DNA from: Psychrobacter sanguinis
Lineage (GTDB): Bacteria > Pseudomonadota > Gammaproteobacteria > Pseudomonadales > Moraxellaceae
DNA: 64,000 bases
Direction: 5' to 3'
Assembly: GCF_020736705.1 (NCBI RefSeq)
Contig: NZ_CP085990.1
Location: 1,178,001-1,242,000, forward strand
Under the pieces are notes generated by a model, which saw only the letters and a program-made list of their open reading frames with translations, searched no databases and was not told the origin of the DNA. Positions within the stretch are counted from its first letter, which is position 1. Each line of letters begins with the position of its first letter. The position numbers were made by a program, and so were the translations under genes. Below are positions 1,027 through 64,000 of the stretch, one piece after another.

Positions 1027-3360
<2,334 letters not shown>

Positions 3361-3486
3361 ATGACTTTCCTACGGCGGTATTAACCGCATCAGGTTCAAC
3401 GGGTGATGTCTCAGCAGACGCTTTTTTAGAGACAGTAGCGAGTAGTAATGCTACTAGTTAAAAAAGAAGGTCTGCACCCCGAGTCT
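3361..3486 (-). promoter_or_regulatory. TPP riboswitch (THI element)
   Basis: Read on the minus strand, the segment contains the conserved TPP aptamer blocks in order: ACTCGGGGTGC, then GCTGAGA, then ACCCGTTGAACCTGAT, then GGTTAATACC followed by GCGTAGG-like sequence. The variable P3 arm is extended by a long stem closed by runs of T and A. It lies upstream of thiC and should lower thiC expression when thiamine pyrophosphate is abundant. This class is well established. How the aptamer acts across the long leader is not evident. Confidence 0.96.
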
Positions 3487-3599
3487 TAATGATCGTGATG
3501 ATAGGGCTATCTTATCAAACTTTGAAAACATTAACAGTGCTCAATTCAACTAAAGCTCACTTCAATTAAACTATCACTACTCCAAACCTTCTCTCCATA

Positions 3600-18282: not shown

Positions 18283-19817
<1,535 letters not shown>

Positions 19818-19878
19818 TTGACGCATTCGGTCAGCAAGAATTCACAACAAGTTGTTCTTTGATTTAGCAAGCTCTTAA

Positions 19879-19955
19879 GGGTCTGTAGCTCAGCTGGTTA
19901 GAGCACCGTGTTGATAACGCGGGGGTCATAAGTTCAAGTCTTATCAGACCCACCA
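19879..19955 (+). tRNA. tRNA-Ile (GAT), operon 1
   Basis: This 77-base cloverleaf has acceptor arms GGGTCTG and CAGACCC, an encoded CCA, and a GAT anticodon at 19913-19915. It sits in the 16S-23S spacer. Confidence 0.96.
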
Positions 19956-19968
19956 CTTATCCCGATAC

Positions 19969-20044
19969 GGGGCCATAGCTCAGTTGGTAGAGCGCCTGCC
20001 TTGCACGCAGGAGGTCAGGAGTTCGACTCTCCTTGGCTCCACCA
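19969..20044 (+). tRNA. tRNA-Ala (TGC), operon 1
   Basis: This 76-base cloverleaf has acceptor arms GGGGCCA and TGGCTCC (one G-U pair), an encoded CCA, and a TGC anticodon within CTTGCACG. It follows tRNA-Ile by 13 bases. Confidence 0.96.
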
Positions 20045-20375
20045 TATTGGATTACGGATTAAGAGTAGATAAAATAGAATTAAGTGATTCATCTTTATAA
20101 TGAAGGTAATGATTACTTACTTCTGTTTTATACAGAAAATATATGACGATCTGATGAAGACGTTATTACTATTTAAAAACATAGATATGAGTTGTAATAT
20201 ACGGTTAGACGATGAATCATTCACTGAGCCATTGTCTAACCAGATAACCAACCTTTTAATGACATCAGTTGTTATCCCAAGGGGTTGGTTATCAAAGTAA
20301 AGAGAACTGAATCAAGCGTAAATTATCAAGGTGATATCGTTATAATTACAGACTAAAGACCCTTTGGGGTTGTAT

Positions 20376-23228
<2,853 letters not shown>

Positions 23229-23374
23229 ACAACACCCAAGTGGTTTTGTAGCTCCTTATAAAGAGCAAGCTATAATTATTTCGATATCACCCTGATAATA
23301 TTGATTCAAGTTCTGATATAATAGTCAAACAAAGTTGAGCTAATAGCTTAACCAACTCATATCTATACCCCCTT

Positions 23375-23490
23375 TGCTGACGACAATAGCACGATGGAAC
23401 CACCTGATCCCTTCTCGAACTCAGAAGTGAAACATCGTTGCGCCAATGGTAGTGTGGTTCGCCCATGTGAGAGTAGGTCATCGTCAGCTC
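23375..23490 (+). rRNA. rrf: 5S ribosomal RNA, operon 1
   Basis: About 116 bases long, with terminal pairing GCTGACGA/TCGTCAGC and internal landmarks GATCCCTTCTCGAACTCAG and GTGAGAGTAGG. The termini are approximate. Confidence 0.94.
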
Positions 23491-23499
23491 CCTATACCT

Positions 23500-23535
23500 A
23501 AAAGCCCCCATTCAAATCTGAATGGGGGCTTTTTC
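23500..23535 (+). terminator. rRNA operon 1 terminator
   Basis: Arms AAAGCCCCCATTC and GAATGGGGGCTTT with a six-base loop and a T-run lie just after the 5S gene. Confidence 0.92.
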
Positions 23536-23675
23536 CTTTTTCAGCTTTAAAATTTGAATAAACCATATCTGATTCATATCTAAAATAAATTAATAGACTA
23601 TTTATTAATACTATATATATAATATTAGTGTAACTTAACGTAAATTTAATTAGATTATATAGAAAGGATTGTTCG

Positions 23676-24026
23676 ATGAGAATAAAGCATATCATATCTA
23701 TTACTTCGCTGCTTTCTATTGCCTCTTTAGCAACTGCAAGTATTAGTTGTGATAAAAATTCAGTTAATAAGCCTGAATGTAATAATGTGTCTATGTATCA
23801 AACTGTTCCATTAGATACGACTAATAATAGCAGAGGAATTAAATGGCTTGCTAATCACTTTGTCAAAACGCGAAGTGATAATAGGCTCACGTATAGCAAA
23901 GATCCTTTTGTTGCTACTGGAGATAATAAGGCAAATACCTGGAAGAAAGAGTCATTTAGTAAGGACATAAGTAATGAAGGTTCTATATGTCGTATCAACT
24001 CTTTTGGTATGACAATATGTAATTGA
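23676..24026 (+). CDS. Small secreted protein of unknown function between rRNA operons
   Basis: I do not recognise this 116-residue protein. The N-terminus is a signal peptide, MRIKHIISITSLLSIASLATA, with likely cleavage after ATA. The mature part is polar, about 95 residues, with four cysteines (one pair near the start, one pair at the end) that could form disulfides. AAAGGA lies about ten bases before the ATG. It stands alone between two rRNA operons. A rich Asn/Ser/Lys content and low GC suggest either a fast-evolving lineage gene or a transferred gene. Confidence 0.68.
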   Translation: MRIKHIISITSLLSIASLATASISCDKNSVNKPECNNVSMYQTVPLDTTNNSRGIKWLANHFVKTRSDNRLTYSKDPFVATGDNKANTWKKESFSKDISNEGSICRINSFGMTICN

Positions 24027-24168
24027 ATAGGGTGCTAAATTAATTTGGAATTTATAAGTGACTAAGGTTGACCTACTGCTCAAAGTCTATATAATACGTT
24101 CCTCAGTTAAGGGAATTATTTGAAAACTGTTCCAAACGAACAAAACTTAAATAAAACAAAACAAACCC

Positions 24169-24642
24169 TTGACACCAGATACAAAACGCGTATAATACGC
24201 ACCTCATCGGGACAACGTAGTTAATGAATATTGACTTCGGTCTTTGGTTTGATTACGATGACTTGATAAAGAATTTAAAAAAGCTGTTGACAAATATTTT
24301 GAATAAGATATACTAGACGGCTCGCTACTAAGGCTAACCAATCTTCGAATTGAAGATAGAGTATCCTTTAATAGCACAACTTAATACGGACGACGTACTA
24401 AGTCAACTATTTAAAAGCTAAAATCAAAGAACAACTTGTGTGGATTTTTGCTGATTTAGAATGCTAAAAATTAAAGTTGGGCTTATCTCTTTTCGGGATG
24501 AGGACTAACTATAAAAATTATCATTCTTTATTAGTAGAGAAACTCGAAGTTAATTCATTATATGAAACATACGGAAAAGCAATTTGCTAGTATTGAATGA
24601 GCCAAGTTTAGAAGTCTCTTTAAAGGACTTCATAGCAAGATT
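24169..24642 (+). promoter_or_regulatory. rRNA operon 2 promoters and leader
   Basis: It is nearly identical to the operon 1 control region from the P1 -35 onward. P1 is TTGACA (24169) with TATAAT (24191); P2 is TTGACA (24287) with TATACT (24309). Similarity to operon 1 stops abruptly just before the P1 -35, so this box marks the left edge of the duplicated block. The 16S processing strand is at 24421-24439 and its complement at 26207-26225. Confidence 0.88.
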
Positions 24643-26177
<1,535 letters not shown>

Positions 26178-26238
26178 TTGACGCATTCGGTCAGCAAGAA
26201 TTCACAACAAGTTGTTCTTTGATTTAGCAAGCTCTTAA

Positions 26239-26315
26239 GGGTCTGTAGCTCAGCTGGTTAGAGCACCGTGTTGATAACGCGGGGGTCATAAGTTCAAGTC
26301 TTATCAGACCCACCA
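26239..26315 (+). tRNA. tRNA-Ile (GAT), operon 2
   Basis: The sequence is identical to the tRNA-Ile of operon 1, with encoded CCA and GAT anticodon. Confidence 0.96.
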
Positions 26316-26328
26316 CTTATCCCGATAC

Positions 26329-26404
26329 GGGGCCATAGCTCAGTTGGTAGAGCGCCTGCCTTGCACGCAGGAGGTCAGGAGTTCGACTCTCCTTGGCTCC
26401 ACCA
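26329..26404 (+). tRNA. tRNA-Ala (TGC), operon 2
   Basis: The sequence is identical to the tRNA-Ala of operon 1, with encoded CCA and TGC anticodon. Confidence 0.96.
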
Positions 26405-26718
26405 TATTGGATTACGGATTAAGAGTGCATAAAATAGAATTAAGTGATTGTTTGATTACTTACTTCTGTTTTATACAGAAAATATATGACGATCTGATGA
26501 AGACGTTATCACTATTTAAAAACATAGATATGAGTTGTAATATACGGTTAGACGATGAATCATTCACTGAGCCATTGTCTAACCAGATAACCAACCTTTT
26601 AATGACATCAGTTGTTATCCCAAGGGGTTGGTTATCAAAGTAAAGAGAACTGAATCAAGCGTAAATTATCAAGGTGATATCGTTATAATTACAGACTAAA
26701 GACCCTTTGGGGTTGTAT

Positions 26719-29571
<2,853 letters not shown>

Positions 29572-29717
29572 ACAACACCCAAGTGGTTTTGTAGCTCCTT
29601 ATAAAGAGCAAGCTATAATTATTTCGATATCACCCTGATAATATTGATTCAGGTTCTGATATAATAGTCAAACAAAGTTGAGCTAATAGCTTAACCAACT
29701 CATATCTATACCCCCTT

Positions 29718-29833
29718 TGCTGACGACAATAGCACGATGGAACCACCTGATCCCTTCTCGAACTCAGAAGTGAAACATCGTTGCGCCAATGGTAGTGTGG
29801 TTCGCCCATGTGAGAGTAGGTCATCGTCAGCTC
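29718..29833 (+). rRNA. rrf: 5S ribosomal RNA, operon 2
   Basis: The gene appears identical to the operon 1 copy. The upstream spacer has one change (CAGG for CAAG). Confidence 0.94.
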
Positions 29834-29842
29834 CCTATACCT

Positions 29843-29877
29843 AAAAGCCCCCATTCAAATCTGAATGGGGGCTTTTT
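29843..29877 (+). terminator. rRNA operon 2 terminator
   Basis: It has the same GC-rich hairpin and T-run as operon 1. Similarity to operon 1 ends within a few bases after it. Confidence 0.92.
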
Positions 29878-29956
29878 CCTTTGTCTAGGCTTTTTTCATT
29901 GGGTTTGTGATATGGTGTTGGCATAATAATTTCATACTTTTTACCGGATTTTATAC

Positions 29957-30247
29957 ATGCCAAAACAAGTCATATTTTTAGCAGTTGGATTTCTGCTTCT
30001 AGGAATACTTCCTTTACCCTATGGCTACTACACACTATTAAGACTTATCGCCTGTGCTGTATTTGCTTGGGCTGCCTATGTGACCTTTGAGAAAAAAGAA
30101 TCAATATTGCCTTGGGTCTTTATTATTTTGGCATTACTGTTTAACCCACTGATAAAAGTTTATCTCTCGAAAGAGATATGGACTGTTATAGACGCTTGTT
30201 CAGCAATATTTTTGCTTATTGTCAGTCCTAAATTGCAGCAAGCATAG
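29957..30247 (+). CDS. Small membrane protein, DUF6804-like
   Basis: This 96-residue integral membrane protein has three to four hydrophobic segments, roughly residues 5-20, 28-43, 51-65 and 74-90. The pattern LPYGYYTLLRL, a central AWAAY, then LFNPLIKVYLSKEIWTVID resembles the DUF6804 family, whose function is unknown. It starts at an ATG preceded by an ACCGG-rich but weak binding site. It sits between the second and third rRNA operons with the methyltransferase gene downstream. A function cannot be given. Confidence 0.75.
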   Translation: MPKQVIFLAVGFLLLGILPLPYGYYTLLRLIACAVFAWAAYVTFEKKESILPWVFIILALLFNPLIKVYLSKEIWTVIDACSAIFLLIVSPKLQQA

Positions 30248-30418
30248 AATGCTCTTCGATTCAATCGTTGCGAAATCAATCTAATAAGTTACACATATTT
30301 TAAGAGGCTTAATTATTTAAGTCGATTATCGTGCAATGAGGTTAGCGATTAGTCTTAAAAGTCTTAAAGCATATACATATTAATCTAACCATTTTCAATT
30401 TATGAAGTGAGAGGGGTT

Positions 30419-31099
30419 ATGAACGAAGAAAGTGTAGAAAGCGCCGATATCACCCCTAGATCGAAGTTACCATTTTCTCAGGCATGCGAAAATAATAAAG
30501 ATCCAATATTGAGTGTGTTGCAACAAGAACTTCAAAATTACCATTATGTGTTTGAAGTTGGTTCAGGCACTGGGCAACATAGCATTTATTTCTCCCCCAG
30601 ATTATCTCATTTACAATGGCAAACCAGCGATTTGGTTGATAATCATGGAGTTATTCAAGGGTGGCACGACCAACATCCTGCGCCTAATTTACATCCGCCC
30701 TTAGCCTTTGATCTGACTACGGATGATATACCTAAATCCCTTAACTCTATGAATAGCCAAACCGGTAATTTGCCATATGATGCTGTTTTCACTGCTAATA
30801 CCCTACATATCATTGCTTGGCCTTTGGTTGAGAGGTTATTTGAGTTAGTCGGGGAAGCACTGCCTATTAATGGTAAGTTCATAATATACGGACCGTTTAA
30901 TGAGAACGGCCAATATAGCAGTGATAGTAATAGACAGTTTGATAAGCATTTGCGTCAGCGAGATCCAAACAGTGGTATTCGTAATAAAGAGGATGTCGTT
31001 GCTTTAGCCAAACAGCATCAACTAATCTTAGATAAGCAGTATAAGATGCTTGCTAATAACGAGATTTTAGTTTTTAAAAAAACAAAGTTTGAACTTTGA
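30419..31099 (+). CDS. DUF938-family SAM-dependent methyltransferase
   Basis: The 226-residue cytoplasmic protein belongs to the DUF938 family of class I methyltransferases. The motif-I glycine loop FEVGSGTGQHSIYFS follows the family lead-in ACENNKDPILSVLQ, and LQWQTSDL and FTANTLHIIAW supply the later SAM-fold strands. The substrate is unknown. The ATG at 30419 is preceded by GAGAGGGG at short spacing; a GTG four codons earlier would overlap that site. It lies alone, upstream of rRNA operon 3. Confidence 0.88.
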   Translation: MNEESVESADITPRSKLPFSQACENNKDPILSVLQQELQNYHYVFEVGSGTGQHSIYFSPRLSHLQWQTSDLVDNHGVIQGWHDQHPAPNLHPPLAFDLTTDDIPKSLNSMNSQTGNLPYDAVFTANTLHIIAWPLVERLFELVGEALPINGKFIIYGPFNENGQYSSDSNRQFDKHLRQRDPNSGIRNKEDVVALAKQHQLILDKQYKMLANNEILVFKKTKFEL

Positions 31100-31205
31100 G
31101 ATATATAACCATCAACCTATTTTACTAATGCGAGTGAACGACTAGAGATAGGGCGGGTAAATTTCATTAGAAAATGAATAATTAGAAAAAACTTTAAAAA
31201 GGCAG

Positions 31206-31669
31206 TTGACAGAAAAAATTAAGGGTCTATAATACGCCCTCACTAAGACGGACATGAGGCAATAAATCGAGAGATTGAAAGCTGGTTCACTTAGAAAGAA
31301 TTAAAATTAAGTGTTGACAACGATATTGAAATGTATATAATAGTCAGCCTGCTAAGCAACAACGTTATTACTAATTAATAATAACTGAGTGCAGCAAAAG
31401 ATTTAACTTAGGCTTGGACGACAAGCTAAGATACTATTTAAAAGCTAAAATCAAAGAACAACTTGTGTGGATTTTTGCTGATTTAGAATGCTAAAAATTA
31501 AAGTTGGGATATCATCTTTTCGGTGATGTGACTAACTATAAAAATTATCATTCTTTATTAGTAAAGAAACTCGAAGTTAATTCATTATATGAAACATACG
31601 GAAAAGCAATTTGCTAGTATTGAATGAGCCAAGTTTAGAAGCTTCTTTAAAGAGCTTCATAGCAAGATT
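31206..31669 (+). promoter_or_regulatory. rRNA operon 3 promoters and leader (divergent from operons 1-2)
   Basis: The promoters are P1 TTGACA (31206) with TATAAT (31228) and P2 TTGACA (31314) with TATAAT (31336), both with 16-base spacers. The sequence up to about 31430 is unrelated to operons 1 and 2, so this operon may be controlled differently. The rest of the leader matches, with the processing strand at 31448-31466 and its complement at 33234-33252. Two leader hairpins differ by compensating changes (ATCATC/GGTGAT and GAAGCT/AGCTTC). Confidence 0.88.
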
Positions 31670-33204
<1,535 letters not shown>

Positions 33205-33265
33205 TTGACGCATTCGGTCAGCAAGAATTCACAACAAGTTGTTCTTTGATTTAGCAAGCTCTTAA

Positions 33266-33342
33266 GGGTCTGTAGCTCAGCTGGTTAGAGCACCGTGTTG
33301 ATAACGCGGGGGTCATAAGTTCAAGTCTTATCAGACCCACCA
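33266..33342 (+). tRNA. tRNA-Ile (GAT), operon 3
   Basis: The sequence is identical to the tRNA-Ile of the other operons, with encoded CCA and GAT anticodon. Confidence 0.96.
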
Positions 33343-33355
33343 CTTATCCCGATAC

Positions 33356-33431
33356 GGGGCCATAGCTCAGTTGGTAGAGCGCCTGCCTTGCACGCAGGAG
33401 GTCAGGAGTTCGACTCTCCTTGGCTCCACCA
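33356..33431 (+). tRNA. tRNA-Ala (TGC), operon 3
   Basis: The sequence is identical to the tRNA-Ala of the other operons, with encoded CCA and TGC anticodon. Confidence 0.96.
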
Positions 33432-33745
33432 TATTGGATTACGGATTAAGAGTGCATAAAATAGAATTAAGTGATTGTTTGATTACTTACTTCTGTTTTA
33501 TACAGAAAATATATGACGATCTGATGAAGACGTTATCACTATTTAAAAACATAGATATGAGTTGTAATATACGGTTAGACGATGAATCATTCACTGAGCC
33601 ATTGTCTAACCAGATAACCAACCTTTTAATGACATCAGTTGTTATCCCAAGGGGTTGGTTATCAAAGTAAAGAGAACTGAATCAAGCGTAAATTATCAAG
33701 GTGATATCGTTATAATTACAGACTAAAGACCCTTTGGGGTTGTAT

Positions 33746-36598
<2,853 letters not shown>

Positions 36599-36746
36599 AC
36601 AACACCCAAGTGGTTTTGTAGCTCCTTATAAAGAGCAAGCTATAATTATTTCGATATCACCCTGATAATATATTGATTCAGGTTCTGATATAATAGTCAA
36701 ACAAAGTTGAGCTAATAGCTTAACCAACTCATATCTATACCCCCTT

Positions 36747-36862
36747 TGCTGACGACAATAGCACGATGGAACCACCTGATCCCTTCTCGAACTCAGAAGT
36801 GAAACATCGTTGCGCCAATGGTAGTGTGGTTCGCCCATGTGAGAGTAGGTCATCGTCAGCTC
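36747..36862 (+). rRNA. rrf: 5S ribosomal RNA, operon 3
   Basis: It matches the other 5S copies. The spacer before it carries two extra bases (AATATATTG, against AATATTG). Confidence 0.94.
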
Positions 36863-54925: not shown

Positions 54926-55450
54926 AAAGGTCTCCTCATTGTTATTGTACTGATGGTTATTTTATTGATGATTTTTTCATTGATGATTAGTTTATTAACG
55001 CTTATTTATAAACCGTTATTTCACAACTTATTATTTTACATTGAGCTATGACCGCATATTGATGCTTATTTGGCAGTGATATGTTGGTTATTTGCCAATT
55101 ACGTGGGTCATTTTCAAGTCATTATTATAAGCTCGTTTTGACTACTCTAGCACAAAGCAAAACCATTATTGAATAGTATTATTGTGCCTTTAGCGACTTT
55201 TAAATTGTCAAAACATCATAAGTGTTCACGTCAATAGCGATAAGGGCTTAAAATAATGAAATAGGCTGAAAATATAACTTTTTTCGGAAAGCGAGGGGAT
55301 ATTGTAAAACTCATCTACTGTAACAATAAACCAAGACATTAGATGATAACTTTAGGCCAATATGCGATAATGCCAGTTAACTATTTATTCAGTTTTTAAT
55401 TAAGTTTTAATTAGTTTTCAATAGCGATTAATCTAAGTAATGGAGTCTTA
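54926..55450. other. Intergenic region upstream of ettA
   Basis: About 525 very AT-rich bases. I see no gene, RNA or repeat that I would defend. It separates two divergent genes and should hold the ettA promoter. Confidence 0.4.
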
Positions 55451-57112
55451 ATGGCACACTATATTTATACCATGAACAAGGTATCAAAACTTGTTCCACC
55501 CAAGCGCGAAATTTTGAAAGACATTAGTTTGTCTTTCTTCCCTGGCGCTAAAATTGGGGTTCTAGGCATTAACGGTGCGGGTAAATCAACTTTACTACGC
55601 ATTATGGCTGGCGTGGACACAGATTATAGTGGTGAGGCCCGTGCTCAACCCGGTACTAAAATCGGTTATTTACCACAAGAGCCACAGCTTGACGATAGCA
55701 AAGATGTGCGTGGCAACGTTGAAGATGGTATGCGTGAAGCCTTAGATGCTTTGGCACGCCTTGATGAGATTTACGCTGAGTACGCCGCACCAGACGCTGA
55801 CTTCGATAAGCTTGCTGAAGAGCAAGGTAAGATGGAAGACATCATCCAAGCATGGGATGCGCATAACTTAAACACTCAGCTGGAAAAAGCTGCTGACGCG
55901 TTACGTCTGCCACCTTGGGATGCTGAAGTTAGCAAATTATCTGGGGGTGAAAAACGCCGTGTGGCCCTTTGTCGTCTATTATTGTCTCGCCCAGACATGC
56001 TACTTCTTGACGAACCAACCAACCACTTGGACGCTGAATCTGTGGCGTGGCTAGAGCAGTTCTTGAAGAACTTTAGCGGTACTATCGTTGCTATTACCCA
56101 CGATAGATACTTCCTTGATAACGTGGCTGAGTGGATTCTTGAACTTGACCGTGGTTATGGCTACCCTTATGAAGGTAACTATACTGAGTGGCTAGAGCAA
56201 AAGAACAAGCGTCTAGAAGAGCAGAACAAGCAAGAAGAATCATTTGCTAAAGCGCTGAAGAAAGAGCTTGAGTGGGTTCGTAAAAATCAGAAAGGTCAGC
56301 AGGCCAAATCTAAATCTCGTATCCAGCGCTTCGAAGAGTTAAACTCTAAAGAATTCCAACAGCGTAACGAAACTTCTGAAATTTATATTCCACCAGGTCC
56401 ACGTTTAGGTAATAAAGTAATTGAGGTGAACAACATCTCAAAATCTTTCGGTGATCGTCTACTGTATGAAAACCTAAGCTTTAATGTGCCACCAGCCGCC
56501 ATCGTAGGTATTATTGGTCCAAACGGTGCCGGTAAAACCACTCTGTTTAATATGATGACAGGATTGGATAAACCTGACACCGGAACTGTCGAACTGGGTG
56601 AAAGTGTGAAAGTTGCCTATGTGGGTCAGGTTCGTGATAATTTAGATGACAGCAAGACGGTGTGGGAAGAAGTCTCTGACGGTCTGGACATCATCAAAGT
56701 AGGCGACTATGAAACCCCAAGCCGTGCGTACATTGGCCGCTTTAACTTCAAAGGTCAAGATCAGCAGAAACTGGTGGGCAACTTATCCGGTGGTGAGCGT
56801 AACCGTCTACAATTAGCGAAAACGCTAAAGCAAGGCGCTAACGTAATCTTACTGGATGAACCATCAAACGACTTGGACGTTGAAACACTACGTGCTCTAG
56901 AAGATGCGATTCAAGTCTTCCCAGGCACCGTTCTAGTTGTGTCGCATGACCGCTGGTTCTTAGACCGTATTGCCACTCATATCCTTGCGTTTGAGCCAGA
57001 AGGCCCAGTATGGTATGACGGTAACTACTCAGAGTACGAAGCGTATCGTAAGAAAACTTTGGGTGACGATGCCGGTCCTAAACGCATGAAATATAAGAAA
57101 ATCTCTAGCTAG
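55451..57112 (+). CDS. ettA: Energy-dependent translational throttle protein EttA
   Basis: EttA is an ABC-F protein that binds the ribosomal E site and restrains early elongation when the ADP/ATP ratio is high. The 553-residue protein has two ABC domains: Walker A GINGAGKST and GPNGAGKTT, signatures LSGGEKRR and LSGGERNR, Walker B LLLDEPTNHLD and ILLDEPSNDLD. The arm-like insertion and the basic linker between domains, with KNQKGQQAKSKSRIQRF, are characteristic. The start MAHYIYTMNKVSK matches EttA and GGAG lies upstream. It lies about 3 kb from a second predicted ribosome-silencing gene at 60262. Confidence 0.96.
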   Translation: MAHYIYTMNKVSKLVPPKREILKDISLSFFPGAKIGVLGINGAGKSTLLRIMAGVDTDYSGEARAQPGTKIGYLPQEPQLDDSKDVRGNVEDGMREALDALARLDEIYAEYAAPDADFDKLAEEQGKMEDIIQAWDAHNLNTQLEKAADALRLPPWDAEVSKLSGGEKRRVALCRLLLSRPDMLLLDEPTNHLDAESVAWLEQFLKNFSGTIVAITHDRYFLDNVAEWILELDRGYGYPYEGNYTEWLEQKNKRLEEQNKQEESFAKALKKELEWVRKNQKGQQAKSKSRIQRFEELNSKEFQQRNETSEIYIPPGPRLGNKVIEVNNISKSFGDRLLYENLSFNVPPAAIVGIIGPNGAGKTTLFNMMTGLDKPDTGTVELGESVKVAYVGQVRDNLDDSKTVWEEVSDGLDIIKVGDYETPSRAYIGRFNFKGQDQQKLVGNLSGGERNRLQLAKTLKQGANVILLDEPSNDLDVETLRALEDAIQVFPGTVLVVSHDRWFLDRIATHILAFEPEGPVWYDGNYSEYEAYRKKTLGDDAGPKRMKYKKISS

Positions 57113-57160
57113 TTTTACTTAGACTAAGCGATTATAGTCAGTGATACATTACTGACCGTA

Positions 57161-57208
57161 AAAAAGCCAGATAGCCGCTCATTGTATAGAGCGGATATCT
57201 GGCTTTTA
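57161..57208. terminator. Bidirectional terminator after ettA
   Basis: A long stem of AAAAGCCAGATA and CCGCTC with their complements and an eight-base loop, with A and T runs outside; it lies between ettA and the convergent zinc-ribbon gene. Confidence 0.87.
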
Positions 57209-57234
57209 TTTTATGTTCTAAATTTTGTATGTCG

Positions 57235-57480
57235 TTATTTCAAAAACTTAACCGTGCCTGAAGTACCTGTCGACATGGCATCATTGGCTAGGTTATTTTT
57301 TTCAATAATCTCTTCAGGGTCTGGACGTCTTTCGATATGGCCACAGTGGGTACATTCAATGTATTCGTCAGCTTCAGGTTCAAATATTTGAACCTGAACC
57401 ACAGCGTCCATTGTCTGACACTTAGGGCAACTAACGCCCGCTAAAAACTGACGCTTGGGACGGGTAGATTGATAACGCAT
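57235..57480 (-). CDS. YheV-type putative zinc-ribbon protein
   Basis: The 81-residue protein has a zinc ribbon of the YheV (DUF2387) family: FLAGVSCPKCQTMDAVVQV and DEYIECTHCGHIERRPDP, two CX2C knuckles about 30 residues apart. The chosen start MRYQSTRPKRQFL places its ATG immediately after the prlC stop (TGATATG), so translation should be coupled to prlC; a longer reading would run backward through prlC. The function is unknown. Confidence 0.85.
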   Translation of the reverse strand: MRYQSTRPKRQFLAGVSCPKCQTMDAVVQVQIFEPEADEYIECTHCGHIERRPDPEEIIEKNNLANDAMSTGTSGTVKFLK

Positions 57481-57481
57481 A

Positions 57482-59653
57482 TCAGGCCACCTCGCCATCT
57501 TTTTCATCAACGAAACCACCATGACGAAGTAGCGCATCAATGCTGGCTTCACGACCTCTGAAGTTCTCAAAGTTGGTCTTGGCAGGCAAGCTACCTCCAA
57601 CGGCTAAGATGTTTTCACGGAAAGCTTGGCCAGTCGCTGCATTAAACACACCTTCTTCCTCAAAGCGACTAAAGGCATCTGCAGACAATAACTCTGCCCA
57701 TTTATAAGAGTAATAACCGGCCGCGTAGCCCCCGGCAAAGATATGACTAAAGCCATTGGCAAAGCGGTTATAATCTGGGGTTGGTGTCACCGCCACATCG
57801 TCACGTACCTGATCTAAAGTCGATAAAATACCCTGATAATCCGGTGCTGGTGAAGCAGCGTGAATTAATAAGTCAAACAGTGCAAATTCAATCTGGCGCA
57901 GAGTCTGCATACCGCTTTGGAAGTTTTTAGCCGCCAATAATGCTTCAAGCTGAGATTTAGGCAGTGGTTCACCTGAATCTACATGAGCACTGATTAGCGC
58001 AATGCCCTCAGAGTTCCAAGCCCAGTTTTCTAAAAATTGGCTTGGTAGTTCGACAGCATCCCACTCAACCCCATTAACGCCTGCCACATCGCTGATACTG
58101 ACCTCAGTCAATAAGTGATGTAGACCATGCCCAAACTCATGGAATAAGGTCAGCACTTCATCATGAGTTAACAAACTAGGTTTGTCAGCAGTAGGTGGCG
58201 TGAAGTTACCTACCATAAAACAAACAGGCAACTGTGAGTAGGTGTCACTTGCCCCTAAATACTCATAACGGGCTTGGAAACCACTCATCCATGCGCCGCC
58301 ACGTTTACCGCTACGGGCATATAGATCAAAGTAAAAGCCACCAATTAAGCGCTCATCGCCCACTTCATTTTTATCGAACAGCTGATAGAAGCGAACATCG
58401 TCATGCCATAAAGAGACTTTATCCGACATTTCTACAGCACGTACTCCAAATAGCTTATTCACAATACTGAATAAGCCGTCAATCACTCTAGGTAAAGGGA
58501 AGTACGGACGAATTTCTTCTTGTGACAATTTGAATTTGGCTTGTTTTACTTTTTCGGCAAGATAGGCAGTGTCCCAAGGCTCAATATTATCGATGCCATA
58601 ATTAATGGCTTCGGCTTTTAATTGTTCTAAATCACGTTGGGCTGCTGGCGTTGCCTTTTCAGCCAAATCACGTAAGAAGCTTTCTACTTGTTCGGCACTG
58701 TCTGCCATCTTGCGAGATAGCGAAACTTGGGCGTAGTTATCGAAACCCAATAGCTTAGATTTCTTCGCTCGCAGTGCCAGAATCTCAGCCATGACTTGAC
58801 TGTTGTCCAACGACTCATCTTTGCTGTTTTTGTGGTTATCAAGTTCTGAGGCACGGGTAACATAAGCTTTATAAAGAGTCTCACGCAGGTCTCGGTCATC
58901 CGCATGGGTCATCACTGCCAGATATACTGGGATATCTAGTGTGGCCACATACTCAGGCTTATCTTCTAACGATTTGCCAGTCTCTGACTGTTTGGCAATA
59001 TACTGCTCAGCGGCTGCTTTCAGTATGGCAAGCCCACTTTCAGTAATACCAGCAAGCTGTTCTTCTTTTAAAGGCAATGCATAAGCTTGAGTGGCATCTA
59101 AAATATTGTCCGAAAACTTCGCTGATAGGGTAGAGAGTTGACTTTGAATCTCAGCATAATCGCTTTGCTTGTCAGCATCCAATGCCACTCCAGATAACTC
59201 AAAGCTTTGAATAGCAAGTTCAATAGCACGCTGGCGGGCAGGCTCTAACGCATCAAAAAAAGTATGGTCGTTTTTGATGGCTTGATAGCGGGTATATAGC
59301 GGTTTATTTTGACCGACACGAGTACTAAACGCAGACAGTAGCGGTAGCATCTCATGATGTACCTCACGAATGTCTTCGTTACTCATCACACTGTTAAGAT
59401 GAGATAAGATGCCCCAACTACGGTCTAAATTAAGCCCGATATGATCAAATTCAATAATATCTGTTAAGGCTGGCTGCGGCTGTACTACAGCGTCAGGTTG
59501 TTGCTCAAATTGTTCATCCAACTTATCTAGAAATTGGTTACCAGAATCAATGGCCTCAGTTATTTGAGCTTTTAACTGTTCTGGGGTTACCTGATTAAAA
59601 TCAACCAATTTTAAATTTGGATCAATGTCGATGGTAGAAGAGGGAGTTTGCAT
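57482..59653 (-). CDS. prlC: Oligopeptidase A (M3 family)
   Basis: PrlC is a cytoplasmic zinc metallopeptidase that degrades short peptides such as cleaved signal peptides. The zinc site is TLFHEFGHGLHHLL, the HExxH motif, followed by the downstream glutamate region VEWDAVELPSQFLENW. Other M3 features are GGFYFDLYARSGKRGGAW and AAGYYSYKWAELLSADAF. The ATG at 59653 (723 residues) has GGA upstream; an ATG at 59665 would add four residues but has no binding site. Family length is about 680. It forms a coupled pair with the zinc-ribbon gene. Confidence 0.95.
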   Translation of the reverse strand: MQTPSSTIDIDPNLKLVDFNQVTPEQLKAQITEAIDSGNQFLDKLDEQFEQQPDAVVQPQPALTDIIEFDHIGLNLDRSWGILSHLNSVMSNEDIREVHHEMLPLLSAFSTRVGQNKPLYTRYQAIKNDHTFFDALEPARQRAIELAIQSFELSGVALDADKQSDYAEIQSQLSTLSAKFSDNILDATQAYALPLKEEQLAGITESGLAILKAAAEQYIAKQSETGKSLEDKPEYVATLDIPVYLAVMTHADDRDLRETLYKAYVTRASELDNHKNSKDESLDNSQVMAEILALRAKKSKLLGFDNYAQVSLSRKMADSAEQVESFLRDLAEKATPAAQRDLEQLKAEAINYGIDNIEPWDTAYLAEKVKQAKFKLSQEEIRPYFPLPRVIDGLFSIVNKLFGVRAVEMSDKVSLWHDDVRFYQLFDKNEVGDERLIGGFYFDLYARSGKRGGAWMSGFQARYEYLGASDTYSQLPVCFMVGNFTPPTADKPSLLTHDEVLTLFHEFGHGLHHLLTEVSISDVAGVNGVEWDAVELPSQFLENWAWNSEGIALISAHVDSGEPLPKSQLEALLAAKNFQSGMQTLRQIEFALFDLLIHAASPAPDYQGILSTLDQVRDDVAVTPTPDYNRFANGFSHIFAGGYAAGYYSYKWAELLSADAFSRFEEEGVFNAATGQAFRENILAVGGSLPAKTNFENFRGREASIDALLRHGGFVDEKDGEVA

Positions 59654-59665
59654 AAACAAGTCCAT

Positions 59666-60261
59666 AACGATAAAAAGTGAAGGTACTTATAACTATTGAG
59701 TCTATTACCTAAGATTGCAAGTCATTAATAAACGCACCCTAAGGCTAAAGTGCTTTAGTCAATATTATTCAGCATAAGGCTAGTTAACAAAGAGCGTTTC
59801 TAATTACCATTGAGTGCTGTTAAAAGCAGATCTAGCATGAGTAATAGCAGAATAAAGAGAATGACTATTATCAATTCATAATGATAATTACATAACGGTG
59901 ACAACCATCGACAATCTACTAATATTGTTTACAATCACCCTATAGCTAATAAGGATTTTGGTTGATAAGGTAAAGGGATAGGAATTATTAAATATAGCTT
60001 ATAGATTTATAAATATTCTAGATAAATAAGCCAATATATAAGACCCAGTTGCATAAGACTGGATTTTTAAATTATAGGTATCAGTTTATAAAATAAGACC
60101 TGTCAGAATAAGACATGGCTTAACACCTATAATCTTCTATACCTATAAGCTTAAATAATAACTAACGATAAGCTTAGATAATTATAAACAATAGATAGAA
60201 TTTAGCTTTTGAGTCATAACCGTTTAGATATTAATAAATTAACTATAAAAAGGATTACTTT
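59666..60261. other. Long AT-rich upstream region of the Balon-like gene
   Basis: Nearly 600 bases without an open frame. It contains a duplicated block, 60038-60062 and 60093-60118, each with two copies of ATAAGAC spaced 15 bases apart. Each block can fold into a small hairpin with an AT-rich loop. A Fur-like CATAATGATAATTACATAA occurs at 59877-59895 but is only a partial match. Promoters of prlC (minus) and the Balon-like gene (plus) should be here. Confidence 0.5.
60038..60118 (+). repeat. Duplicated ATAAGAC-pair motif upstream of the Balon-like gene
   Basis: ATAAGAC occurs at 60038, 60053, 60093 and 60108. Each pair is spaced by 15 bases and the two pairs are 55 bases apart, and the copies continue into GG or TGG on the right. 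The arms CCAGT/ACTGG in the first unit and CCTGTC/GACATGG in the second differ in sequence, but both allow pairing around the repeated loop. Confidence 0.6.
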
Positions 60262-61374
60262 ATGAAAGCCACTTTAAAAAGTTTACGTGAAACAACCGCA
60301 AAGCCTGCTGTTAGTATCTTTGTAAAAACGCATAGACAGCATCCAGATAATGAGCAAGACCCTATTGCCTTAAAAAACCAACTTAAAGTTGCGGAAGAGC
60401 GTATTACTGATGAATACGACAAAAATACAGCAACTACTATCTTAGAAAATATTCACGCTAAAACAAACGATTTAAACCATAACTATAATTTAGACACATT
60501 GGCTATCTTTGCGAGCAAAGATGATGCGCAAGTAGTGCGTTTACCGTTTGATGCCAAAGAGCGTGTGATCATTGATGAACGCTTTGCTACTCGTGATTTG
60601 GTTCGTGATATGGCAAGTGCCGTTCACTACTATATTGTGGTGCTAGGTCGTGACCAAGCCCGTCTCATTGAAGCCGCTAATAACCGTGTGGTTAAAGAGT
60701 TTGATGCAGATGATGCTGCCCAGAACAATATGGAAAATATTCCTTTCCCTATTGAAAATAACAGCTTATATAAAACAGGCGATGGCGGCTCTGACCGTTC
60801 AGCCAACAACGAAAATAGTGTTCTAAAAGAATACTTTAACCGTATTGATAAAAGTGTCCAAGAGCTTTGGGGCGAGCATAAAATGCCGTTAGTGCTTGTC
60901 GGTGACAATCGAAATATTAGTTACTATAAAGAAGTGTGTGACCGCCCAGAAAATATCATTGGCGCAGTGTCTAATGTTACTGACTTAGAGCAGGGCAGTG
61001 CTCAGCATATCGTTGATGGAGTACAAGAAGCTGTAGAGGACTATCGTACGTCGCTTCATGAAGCTGCTTTAGGCGAAATTGATAAAGCCCGTGGTGCAGA
61101 TGTTTTGCGTACTGATTTACAAGAAATTTATCGTTCTGCCTTCCAAGGTGCTGGCGAGACTCTATATGTTCGTCGTGGCTATATGCAGCCTGCGAAAATC
61201 GATGAAAAAGCACAGACTTTAACGTTGGCTGACGATCCTGCAGCAGAAGGCGTAACGGATGATGCGATTAGTGATATCATTGAGCATGTGATGCACAATG
61301 GCGGTAAGGTGGTGTTCTTACCTGAAGAACTGATGGGCGATGACCTACCCATTGCTTTGGTAACTCGCTATTAG
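60262..61374 (+). CDS. Balon-like ribosome hibernation factor (aeRF1/Pelota-related)
   Basis: The 370-residue protein looks like a bacterial relative of archaeo-eukaryotic release factor aeRF1 and Pelota, matching the Balon family found in Psychrobacter urativorans, which occupies the ribosomal A site during cold shock and stationary phase with EF-Tu. The N-terminal part (to about 125) begins MKATLKSLRETTAKPAVSIF. The middle part has YYIVVLGRDQARLIEA and PLVLVGDNRNISYYKEV. The C-terminal part ends IIEHVMHNGGKVVFLPEEL and ALVTRY, as in the L7Ae-like third domain. No GGQ motif is present, so peptide release is not expected. AAAGGA precedes the ATG. The gene is monocistronic with its own terminator. 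Confidence 0.85.
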   Translation: MKATLKSLRETTAKPAVSIFVKTHRQHPDNEQDPIALKNQLKVAEERITDEYDKNTATTILENIHAKTNDLNHNYNLDTLAIFASKDDAQVVRLPFDAKERVIIDERFATRDLVRDMASAVHYYIVVLGRDQARLIEAANNRVVKEFDADDAAQNNMENIPFPIENNSLYKTGDGGSDRSANNENSVLKEYFNRIDKSVQELWGEHKMPLVLVGDNRNISYYKEVCDRPENIIGAVSNVTDLEQGSAQHIVDGVQEAVEDYRTSLHEAALGEIDKARGADVLRTDLQEIYRSAFQGAGETLYVRRGYMQPAKIDEKAQTLTLADDPAAEGVTDDAISDIIEHVMHNGGKVVFLPEELMGDDLPIALVTRY

Positions 61375-61476
61375 ATTTTTGTCTCATTAATCATTTATAG
61401 CCATTAATTATCTGTTAGTAGTTATCCGTTATTAATTTGCGAATAGTAGTGAACTGATAAAATAATGAGCTGATAG

Positions 61477-61508
61477 AAAAAACACTGATTTTATGTCAGT
61501 GTTTTTTT
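61477..61508 (+). terminator. Terminator after the Balon-like gene
   Basis: Arms CACTGA and TCAGTG (extended by A and T runs) around a seven-base loop and followed by a run of seven T. Confidence 0.87.
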
Positions 61509-61540
61509 ATGGGCTAAGGTTTATCGATCTAATACCAATT

Positions 61541-62118
61541 CTAAAAAATAACACTCAAGTCGCACCACTCCCGCTGAGTGATAGACCTAATTAAGTTAGT
61601 CTCATTACACAATGCATTCCAAGCGTCACATGCCGCATCGACAATCGCATCATAACTCTCAAAACAGCGATTAGATAACCAATGCTGTTTAAGGTACTGC
61701 CATACCTGTTCAGCAGGGTTAAGCTCAGGTGAGTAGGGAGGCAATTTAAGCATGGTCACATTGTCTTGATCCAAACTTGGTTGGTGCCATAGCGCCCCAT
61801 CCATAACCACCACGGCATGCCGACCTTCAGGAACAGCTTTACTGATTTCCTCCATATGCAATGCCATGGCTTGCTTATTCACATAAGGTAGAACAAGTCC
61901 AACACTCTCACCTGTCGCCGGATTAAAGGCACCAAATAGATAAGTCGATTCAAACTGCTGTTGCCTGACGACTCGAGGTCTTTGTCCTTTATAGTGCCAA
62001 ACCCTTGTGATAGAGCCTTGTTGGCCAATACGTGTTTCATCCTGAAACCATATATCAACTTGCTTGATATCAACACCATCAGGTAGAACTTGCTTTACCT
62101 GCTCAAGGAAGTTTTTTT
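61541..62118 (-). CDS. IS630 transposase, catalytic part (second frame)
   Basis: Read in the frame shifted by one base at the seven-A run (62112-62118), this segment gives the DDE core of an IS630 transposase: IWFQDETRIGQQG (first Asp), VVVMDGALWHQ (second Asp) and LPPYSPELNPAEQVWQYLK (the final acidic residue). It has no start codon of its own upstream of the first Asp, so it must be made as a fusion with the first frame by -1 slippage. The last residues run to 61541, six bases inside the left repeat. If no frameshift occurs the element is inactive. Confidence 0.85.
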
Positions 62119-62598
62119 ATATGCCTCCATGACTTTAGGATCTGCCTTAGGATGCTGACTACGCGCAGATATCCAGCTCATACCAATACGTTTCATGAGA
62201 GGATAGATCGCTTTAGGGGTATAGTTGGCGTTAAATTGTTCCTTGGCGATTTGTGCGATGTCTTTTGCCGTGAGCCTACCACCACCTCTTTGCTGCTGAG
62301 CTTCTACTATCGCTTGTTTGAATGGTTCTATGTCTTTTTCTGCTAAAAGACTCTTTCTGCCTCTGCCAGCTGCGTCATAGACACTAGTGATACCATGCAA
62401 CCAGTATTTCCTTCTTATGGTATAGACGCCTCTAGGGTTATAGCCAAAGTTCTCTGCTACGGTCGCTATAGGATGACCTTGACTCAGTTGATGCAGCATG
62501 AGTAGTCTGATTCGCGCTCTGGCATTGCCTTCTGTTTTAGATAGTTGCAGAAAATCGTGGTCTGTGAGTTTATGATTTCTAGGGGTCTTTTTCGGCAT
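62095..62598 (-). CDS. IS630 transposase, DNA-binding part (first frame)
   Basis: The 167-residue frame begins MPKKTPRNHKLTDHDFLQLS and holds the helix-turn-helix of IS630 transposases (HPIATVAENFGYNPRGVYTI) and the following winged region with GGGRLTAKDIAQI and SWISARSQHPKADP. It ends shortly after a run of seven A at 62112-62118. The sequence AYKKTSLSR followed by a stop is replaced, after a -1 shift, by AYKKNFLEQV, which continues the family pattern. A programmed frameshift is therefore likely, producing a protein of about 350 residues. Confidence 0.88.
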   Translation of the reverse strand: MPKKTPRNHKLTDHDFLQLSKTEGNARARIRLLMLHQLSQGHPIATVAENFGYNPRGVYTIRRKYWLHGITSVYDAAGRGRKSLLAEKDIEPFKQAIVEAQQQRGGGRLTAKDIAQIAKEQFNANYTPKAIYPLMKRIGMSWISARSQHPKADPKVMEAYKKTSLSR

Positions 62599-62653
62599 AT
62601 GATTCTATTATGTTGTTGAGTTGATTATATTGTATATTATTTTGTGGAATTGG

Positions 62654-62954
62654 TATAATAGGTAGAATCAATAAGTAGTGATAGAAGCATAAAGAAAGGT
62701 TATAAATAATTATTAACAATTATTAGAATTTAAAAACGAATATCCCTCAAAACATTGAGTGATTAATACTATAATTGTTTTAAGGCTAAAGTTATTTTAA
62801 AGCTAAAACATGAATAATTATTAATAACGATCCATAATCGGTAATAGCCCTTAGTTTAGAAAGAAACCGATATACTTTCTTTTCTTTTTATTGCTCTTAA
62901 AATTCATACTGCTCTTAAACTTCTAAAAATATTATAAAAATAAGTAAATTAAAA
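62654..62954. other. Gap between IS630 element and EEP gene
   Basis: About 300 very AT-rich bases. No gene or clear ribosome binding site was seen; the promoter of the next gene should lie here. Confidence 0.4.
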
Positions 62955-63710
62955 ATGATTAATTCTAACAGTATTACGGTGACCACCTATAACATACACA
63001 AAGGTATGTCGCCGCTAAACCGCCATGTGGTCACTCAAAGAATGGGCTTGGCTCTAAAACAAATCAATCCTGATATTATGTGCTTGCAAGAAGTACAAGG
63101 TCAGAACTTGAAGCGCATGCTCAAATACAATGAATATCCGAACCAATCGCAGCATGAGTGGTTTGGAGAGTTTTTGGACTGTCAACACAGCTATGGCAAA
63201 AATTCGGAGTATGGCAATGGTCATCATGGCAATGCTGTACTTAGTCGCCATCCTTTAGACCCCAAGCACAATGTCAATATTACTGTGAATAAGCTTGAAC
63301 AAAGGGGGGTGCTACACTGTGAAGTGCTGCCGCTAGGTTGGGAGGAACCTGTAGTTGTATTGTGTGCCCATTTAAATCTGTTAGAGAACGATAGAGAAAA
63401 GCAGTACAGAGCGATTGCGGCTTATGTTAACGATACCATTGATCAAAATCGTCCTTTAATATTGGCAGGCGATTTTAATGATTGGAAAAAAGTGTCTTGT
63501 CAGAAGTTAGCAGATGAGCTGAATATGACAGAAGCTTTTATGGAAATGCATCACAAGTTATTGCCCACTTATCCTGCCAAACTTCCAGTACTTAGCTTAG
63601 ACCGTATTTATGTGCGTAACCTAAAAATTAAACGAGCATGGGTACACAAAGGTAAACCATGGTCTTCCTTATCCGATCACCTGCCTATCAGTGCGGAGCT
63701 TTGTCCATAA
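62955..63710 (+). CDS. Endonuclease/exonuclease/phosphatase family protein
   Basis: The 251-residue protein has the EEP (DNase I-like) fold. Motifs in order are TTYNIHKGMSPLNRHV, IMCLQEVQG (metal-binding Glu), GNGHHGNAVLSRHPL, VLCAHLNLLENDREKQ (catalytic His), LAGDFNDWKK (Asp/Asn) and SLSDHLPISAEL (Asp/His). There is no signal peptide. The substrate may be DNA, RNA or a phosphoester; sequence alone does not decide. It is followed by a strong terminator. Confidence 0.9.
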   Translation: MINSNSITVTTYNIHKGMSPLNRHVVTQRMGLALKQINPDIMCLQEVQGQNLKRMLKYNEYPNQSQHEWFGEFLDCQHSYGKNSEYGNGHHGNAVLSRHPLDPKHNVNITVNKLEQRGVLHCEVLPLGWEEPVVVLCAHLNLLENDREKQYRAIAAYVNDTIDQNRPLILAGDFNDWKKVSCQKLADELNMTEAFMEMHHKLLPTYPAKLPVLSLDRIYVRNLKIKRAWVHKGKPWSSLSDHLPISAELCP

Positions 63711-63782
63711 ACTTTCATCGTCAAAGCAAATAGCGTTTACTTATTATTCTATTCTGCATCTATGGCTAAGCAACTAACCTAA

Positions 63783-63817
63783 AAAAAAGAGCTGTCCATT
63801 TTGGACAGCTCTTTTTT
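63783..63817. terminator. Bidirectional terminator between EEP gene and right-edge gene
   Basis: Arms AAAAAAGAGCTGTCC and GGACAGCTCTTTTTT enclose a five-base loop; it serves both converging genes. Confidence 0.9.
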
Positions 63818-63874
63818 AATAACCTTGGTTAAGTGAAATTTATCCGCTTAAGCAGGTTTCACTTATAATCTAAC

Positions 63875-64000
63875 TTAAGACTTAGGTTTGCCACGGCCTC
63901 GGCTATTACGGCGACGAGAAGGTTTCTTCTCATCAGCGCCTTTACTTTGACCATTTTGATTAGACTGTTTTTGCTTTGCCTTAGTCGCCGTATCATCTTT
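63875..64000 (-). CDS. C-terminal tail of a gene cut by the window edge, possibly a DEAD-box RNA helicase
   Basis: The last 41 codons of a minus-strand gene are visible; the rest lies beyond the window. The tail is strongly basic and polar: KQKQSNQNGQSKG, then KKPSRRRNSRGRGKPKS and a stop. Arg/Gly-rich tails like this are common on DEAD-box RNA helicases of cold-adapted bacteria, and also occur on RNase E and other RNA-binding proteins. The domain itself cannot be seen, so the identity is a guess. Confidence 0.55.
   Translation of the reverse strand, partial: KDDTATKAKQKQSNQNGQSKGADEKKPSRRRNSRGRGKPKS

Follow-up and report, generated by a model that had tools for sequence, protein, structure and literature searches.

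The 64,000-nucleotide stretch of the Psychrobacter sanguinis chromosome analysed here (contig NZ_CP085990.1, positions 1,178,001 to 1,242,000; called the window, whose numbering is used throughout) carries a gene for a 370-residue protein which is very probably the orthologue of Balon (AOC03_06830), the ribosome hibernation factor of Psychrobacter urativorans. The open reading frame (ORF), referred to as balon, starts with ATG at 60262 and ends with a stop codon at 61372-61374, on the + strand. It stands alone, as the initial annotation had proposed, with prlC divergently oriented upstream, 596 bp away, and the transposase ORFs of an IS630-type insertion element downstream on the other strand (Table 1). 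Compared with a relative (L003) 90% identical to it, the gene differs at 31 first, 10 second and 160 third positions over 370 codons, and a match was found in all 60 Psychrobacter genomes of a sample drawn from the larger group, its own genome included; balon is therefore a genuine gene.

Table 1. Features of the balon locus, in window coordinates
Feature	Position	Strand	Basis
balon, 370 aa, very probable orthologue of P. urativorans AOC03_06830 (Balon)	60262..61374	+	ORF, profile, alignment, fold
Shine-Dalgarno sequence AAGGA	60250..60254	+	7 nt 5' of the ATG; sequence read directly; consensus at the site among 41 distinct genus upstream rows
A+T-rich divergent prlC/balon intergenic region, presumed place of promoter(s)	59666..60249	+	ORF map, upstream alignment
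Probable intrinsic terminator, hairpin and T run	61476..61508	+	Fold of -16.0 kcal/mol for a 50-nt piece
Codons of H27-P28, taken as the HP motif contacting the decoding centre	60340..60345	+	Alignment; motif named in PMC10901736
Codons of residues 169-180, low-confidence middle-domain loop, presumed lasso loop	60766..60801	+	pLDDT below 50 at 169-180

Identity of the protein

A phmmer search of PDB sequences matched P. urativorans Balon from end to end (E = 3e-192); the remaining three sequences listed were at chance level (E 0.34 to 1.2). Over their full length the two proteins are 77.6% identical (287 of 370 columns), with one gap and 82 substitutions. The NCBIfam equivalog model NF052287, 'AOC03_06830 family ribosome hibernation factor', scored 529.1 bits, above its cut-off of 330, and Pfam baeRF_family3, which matches one place in the genome, scored 110.7 bits for a cut-off of 31.5. 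Pfam baeRF families 7, 6 and 8 also exceeded their cut-offs, with scores below that of baeRF_family3, and family 11 fell below its own. The initial annotation had spoken of a Balon-like factor. We would go further and regard the gene as a full Psychrobacter Balon orthologue, with a probability of about 0.96.

The predicted structure (mean predicted local distance difference test score, pLDDT, 84.3) supports the three-domain aeRF1/Pelota-type, or release-factor, fold which had been proposed from sequence. Its fold matches were, in order, three Balon chains, Msmeg1130, then aRF1/eRF1, Rv2629 and Pelota. Sequence similarity and a related fold, the two points on which a Balon-like identity could have failed, were thus both found. 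The ribosome-bound structures solved for P. urativorans Balon are PDB 8rd8, 8rdv and 8rdw. In chain 8rd8_B and the chains identical to it, Balon carries the molecule name 'Methyl-accepting chemotaxis protein', a misleading label that could misguide annotation by transfer.

One could instead suppose that the protein belongs to the wider bacterial baeRF group as a Pelota- or aeRF1-like factor for rescue or release, and that its role is not hibernation. The weaker matches to baeRF families 7, 6 and 8, and the resemblance of the fold to aRF1/eRF1 and Pelota, would fit this. However, a motif search of the protein found neither GGQ, the absence of which had been noted initially, nor NIKS, and a protein lacking GGQ is not expected to release peptides by known chemistry. 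Moreover, its nearest PDB sequence is Balon itself, and the equivalog cut-off for the hibernation factor was passed. We consider this alternative very improbable, and membership of the aeRF1 release factors, to which PMC10901736 assigns both motifs, was rejected. Among the rows listed, identity to aRF1/eRF1 and Pelota/Dom34, with which the protein shares its predicted three-domain architecture, is 9-17%. The mycobacterial Balon homologues Msmeg1130 and Rv2629 are also distant, at 10-14% identity, and the MSMEG_1130 model (NCBIfam NF052288) gave 21.3 bits, below its cut-off of 480.

Alternatively, the gene might be a Balon orthologue whose function was lost or changed in this species, given the 82 substitutions and the gap relative to P. 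urativorans Balon. Yet the reading frame is intact, and the differences from the 90%-identical relative lie mainly at third codon positions, making this reading most unlikely as well. The orthologue shares with P. urativorans Balon, besides most of its sequence, the fold, the HP residues described below, and the lack of GGQ and NIKS.

The gene had also been singled out as the exciting system of the window. As a claim of novelty this is not supported: Balon was published in 2024 from Psychrobacter (PMC10901736), NCBIfam already names the family, and within Psychrobacter the gene belongs to the core. The protein had been described before, and in this very genus; it adds no new kind of system.

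Proposed mechanism and points against it

PMC10901736 shows Balon occupying, with EF-Tu(GDP), the A site of both vacant and translating ribosomes, in a manner compatible with RaiA. Its binding is indifferent to messenger RNA (mRNA), and the catalytic centre stays inert. Because of the 77.6% identity, the same fold and the same genus, by far the likeliest reading is that the window protein would share this mechanism by orthology. Upon cold shock or starvation it would then enter the A site without codon recognition. The N domain would contact the decoding centre via the HP motif, the middle domain, with its lasso loop and bL27 trap, would leave the peptidyl-transferase centre inert, with no peptide release, and the C domain would bind EF-Tu(GDP). 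On vacant ribosomes it might do so together with RaiA, and on translating ones in the presence of mRNA and peptidyl-transfer RNA (peptidyl-tRNA). The cell would benefit during the early phase of its recovery from dormancy.

Two of these elements can be placed tentatively. HP occurs only once in the window protein, at residues 27-28, and only once, at the same position, in solved Balon; since the available text of PMC10901736 gives no residue numbers, we infer from this uniqueness that H27-P28 is the published motif. P28 is invariant in all 17 aligned sequences. Residues 169-180 of the predicted structure are presumed to form the lasso loop; PMC10901736 describes this loop of Balon as poorly ordered when the ribosome has no P-site tRNA.

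Several points weigh against carrying the published mechanism over as it stands. Residue 27 is H in 14 of the 17 aligned sequences and F in the other three, all from outside Psychrobacter. Superposition on the ribosome-bound Balon chains gave a root-mean-square deviation of 6.9-7.0 Å (Foldseek template modelling score, TM, 0.61-0.64), which probably reflects a different domain placement without the ribosome. Despite an alignment with one gap, the lasso loop, bL27 trap and EF-Tu-binding beta-hairpin are unmapped at residue level, again for want of residue numbers in the text available. According to that text, knocking out balon in P. arcticus made growth in rich medium slightly faster and led to a growth defect during day one of recovery, at comparable levels of ribosomal RNA (rRNA).

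Upstream region, distribution and partner factors

The gene had been credited with its own leader and terminator. A Shine-Dalgarno sequence and a hairpin followed by a T run are indeed present (Table 1), the hairpin not being among the predictions of a consensus terminator scan, and the leader showed nothing special. The alignment comprised 41 distinct Psychrobacter upstream rows, namely those of the window, of L003-L031 and of 11 others, each with up to 250 nt 5' of the gene and 30 nt of the gene itself. Strong conservation was limited to the stretch next to the start codon, with consensus gATAATAAAA followed by AAGGA, and some columns farther upstream were partly conserved. The window row retains AAGGA and diverges from the consensus in the A+T stretch before it. 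No Rfam family reached its gathering score in 55000-64000 (one scan gave six sub-threshold matches, another none), and the 10 promoter-like matches in 59600-61600 are close to the number that shuffled sequences gave (mean 7.6, sd 2.8). A conserved regulatory leader is therefore unsupported, and the alignment, promoter scan and Rfam scan pointed to no novel regulatory device.

balon is a core gene of Psychrobacter. The match is single in 59 of the 60 genomes; the remaining one (G059) has two overlapping matches and an in-frame TGA, and in another (G032) the match spans residues 1-173 only. A peptide-pattern scan of named genomes, which detects close relatives only, matched 98 stretches, from which 75 loci were confirmed, all of them Psychrobacter. 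As to plasmid carriage, PLSDB gave no match at megablast sensitivity. In a sample of 81 genomes of the family, the Balon family was matched in 23 (22 over cut-off). Thirteen of these are Psychrobacter; outside the genus there were matches in 10 of 68 genomes (9 over cut-off), from four other genera. That Balon is a core gene at a stable chromosomal place supports the use of other Psychrobacter species for its study.

The balon genes of two Psychrobacter species, L006 and L009, are 87-100% identical in each tenth of their first half and 70-83% in each tenth of the second, and the DNA just 5' of the gene is near-identical between them. Alleles of balon thus look to have recombined within the genus.

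As to other hibernation factors, the genome has one RaiA/HPF-domain gene, and RMF had no match in it. Among the 81 family genomes, RMF was found in 17, never together with Balon, and 41 had neither; were genomes independent, about five with both would be expected (23 and 17 of 81). Each gene, however, is concentrated in certain genera (RMF in 4 of the 16, Balon in 5), and few independent events therefore lie behind the non-overlap. The exclusion is a small lead on mutual replacement of hibernation factors, and a lead only, as it is confounded by relatedness. It is improbable that Balon fills the place of RMF in the family and, in one Psychrobacter subclade, is expressed or acts with the nearby EttA described below.

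Neighbouring genes

We read 21 Psychrobacter loci (the window and 20 fetched ones, chosen by us from the 60 genomes), leaving out rows below 38% identity. The order prlC, balon, endonuclease-family gene was found in all 21. In the window, the prlC product is oligopeptidase A-like (724.5 bits, below the model cut-off of 927), and the endonuclease/exonuclease/phosphatase-like gene, at 62955-63710, scores below the cut-offs of those models. Outside the genus, the order was found in three of ten loci, and in a fourth locus balon and the endonuclease gene were found and prlC was not; in L082, balon itself was missed at the thresholds used. The gap between balon and the endonuclease gene sometimes holds other DNA, which in the window is the insertion element.

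This IS630-type element (61532-62656) lies just past the probable balon terminator and has 27-nt imperfect terminal inverted repeats (81%). Two distinct minus-strand ORFs match the transposase model, both with scores under its cut-off. The genome holds 12 full-length copies, that of the window included, and one fragment, 97-100% identical.

Two genes upstream of balon, at 55451-57112, lies the gene for the energy-dependent translational throttle EttA (967 bits). It stands beside prlC in four of the 21 Psychrobacter loci (the window, L053, L054 and L055), so a conserved functional pair in the genus was rejected. Outside the genus, ettA was near balon in one of ten loci, L075, at a distance of about 5.5 kb and with no prlC.

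Elsewhere in the window, three complete rRNA operons (16S, Ile and Ala tRNA, 23S, 5S) are arranged in tandem at 18283-36861, within about 19 kb. They are 99.3-99.6% identical over about 5.5 kb. The whole genome contains five copies of the 16S gene. A thiamine pyrophosphate (TPP) riboswitch was matched at 3350-3491 on the minus strand, with 64.8 bits for a gathering score of 54.3.
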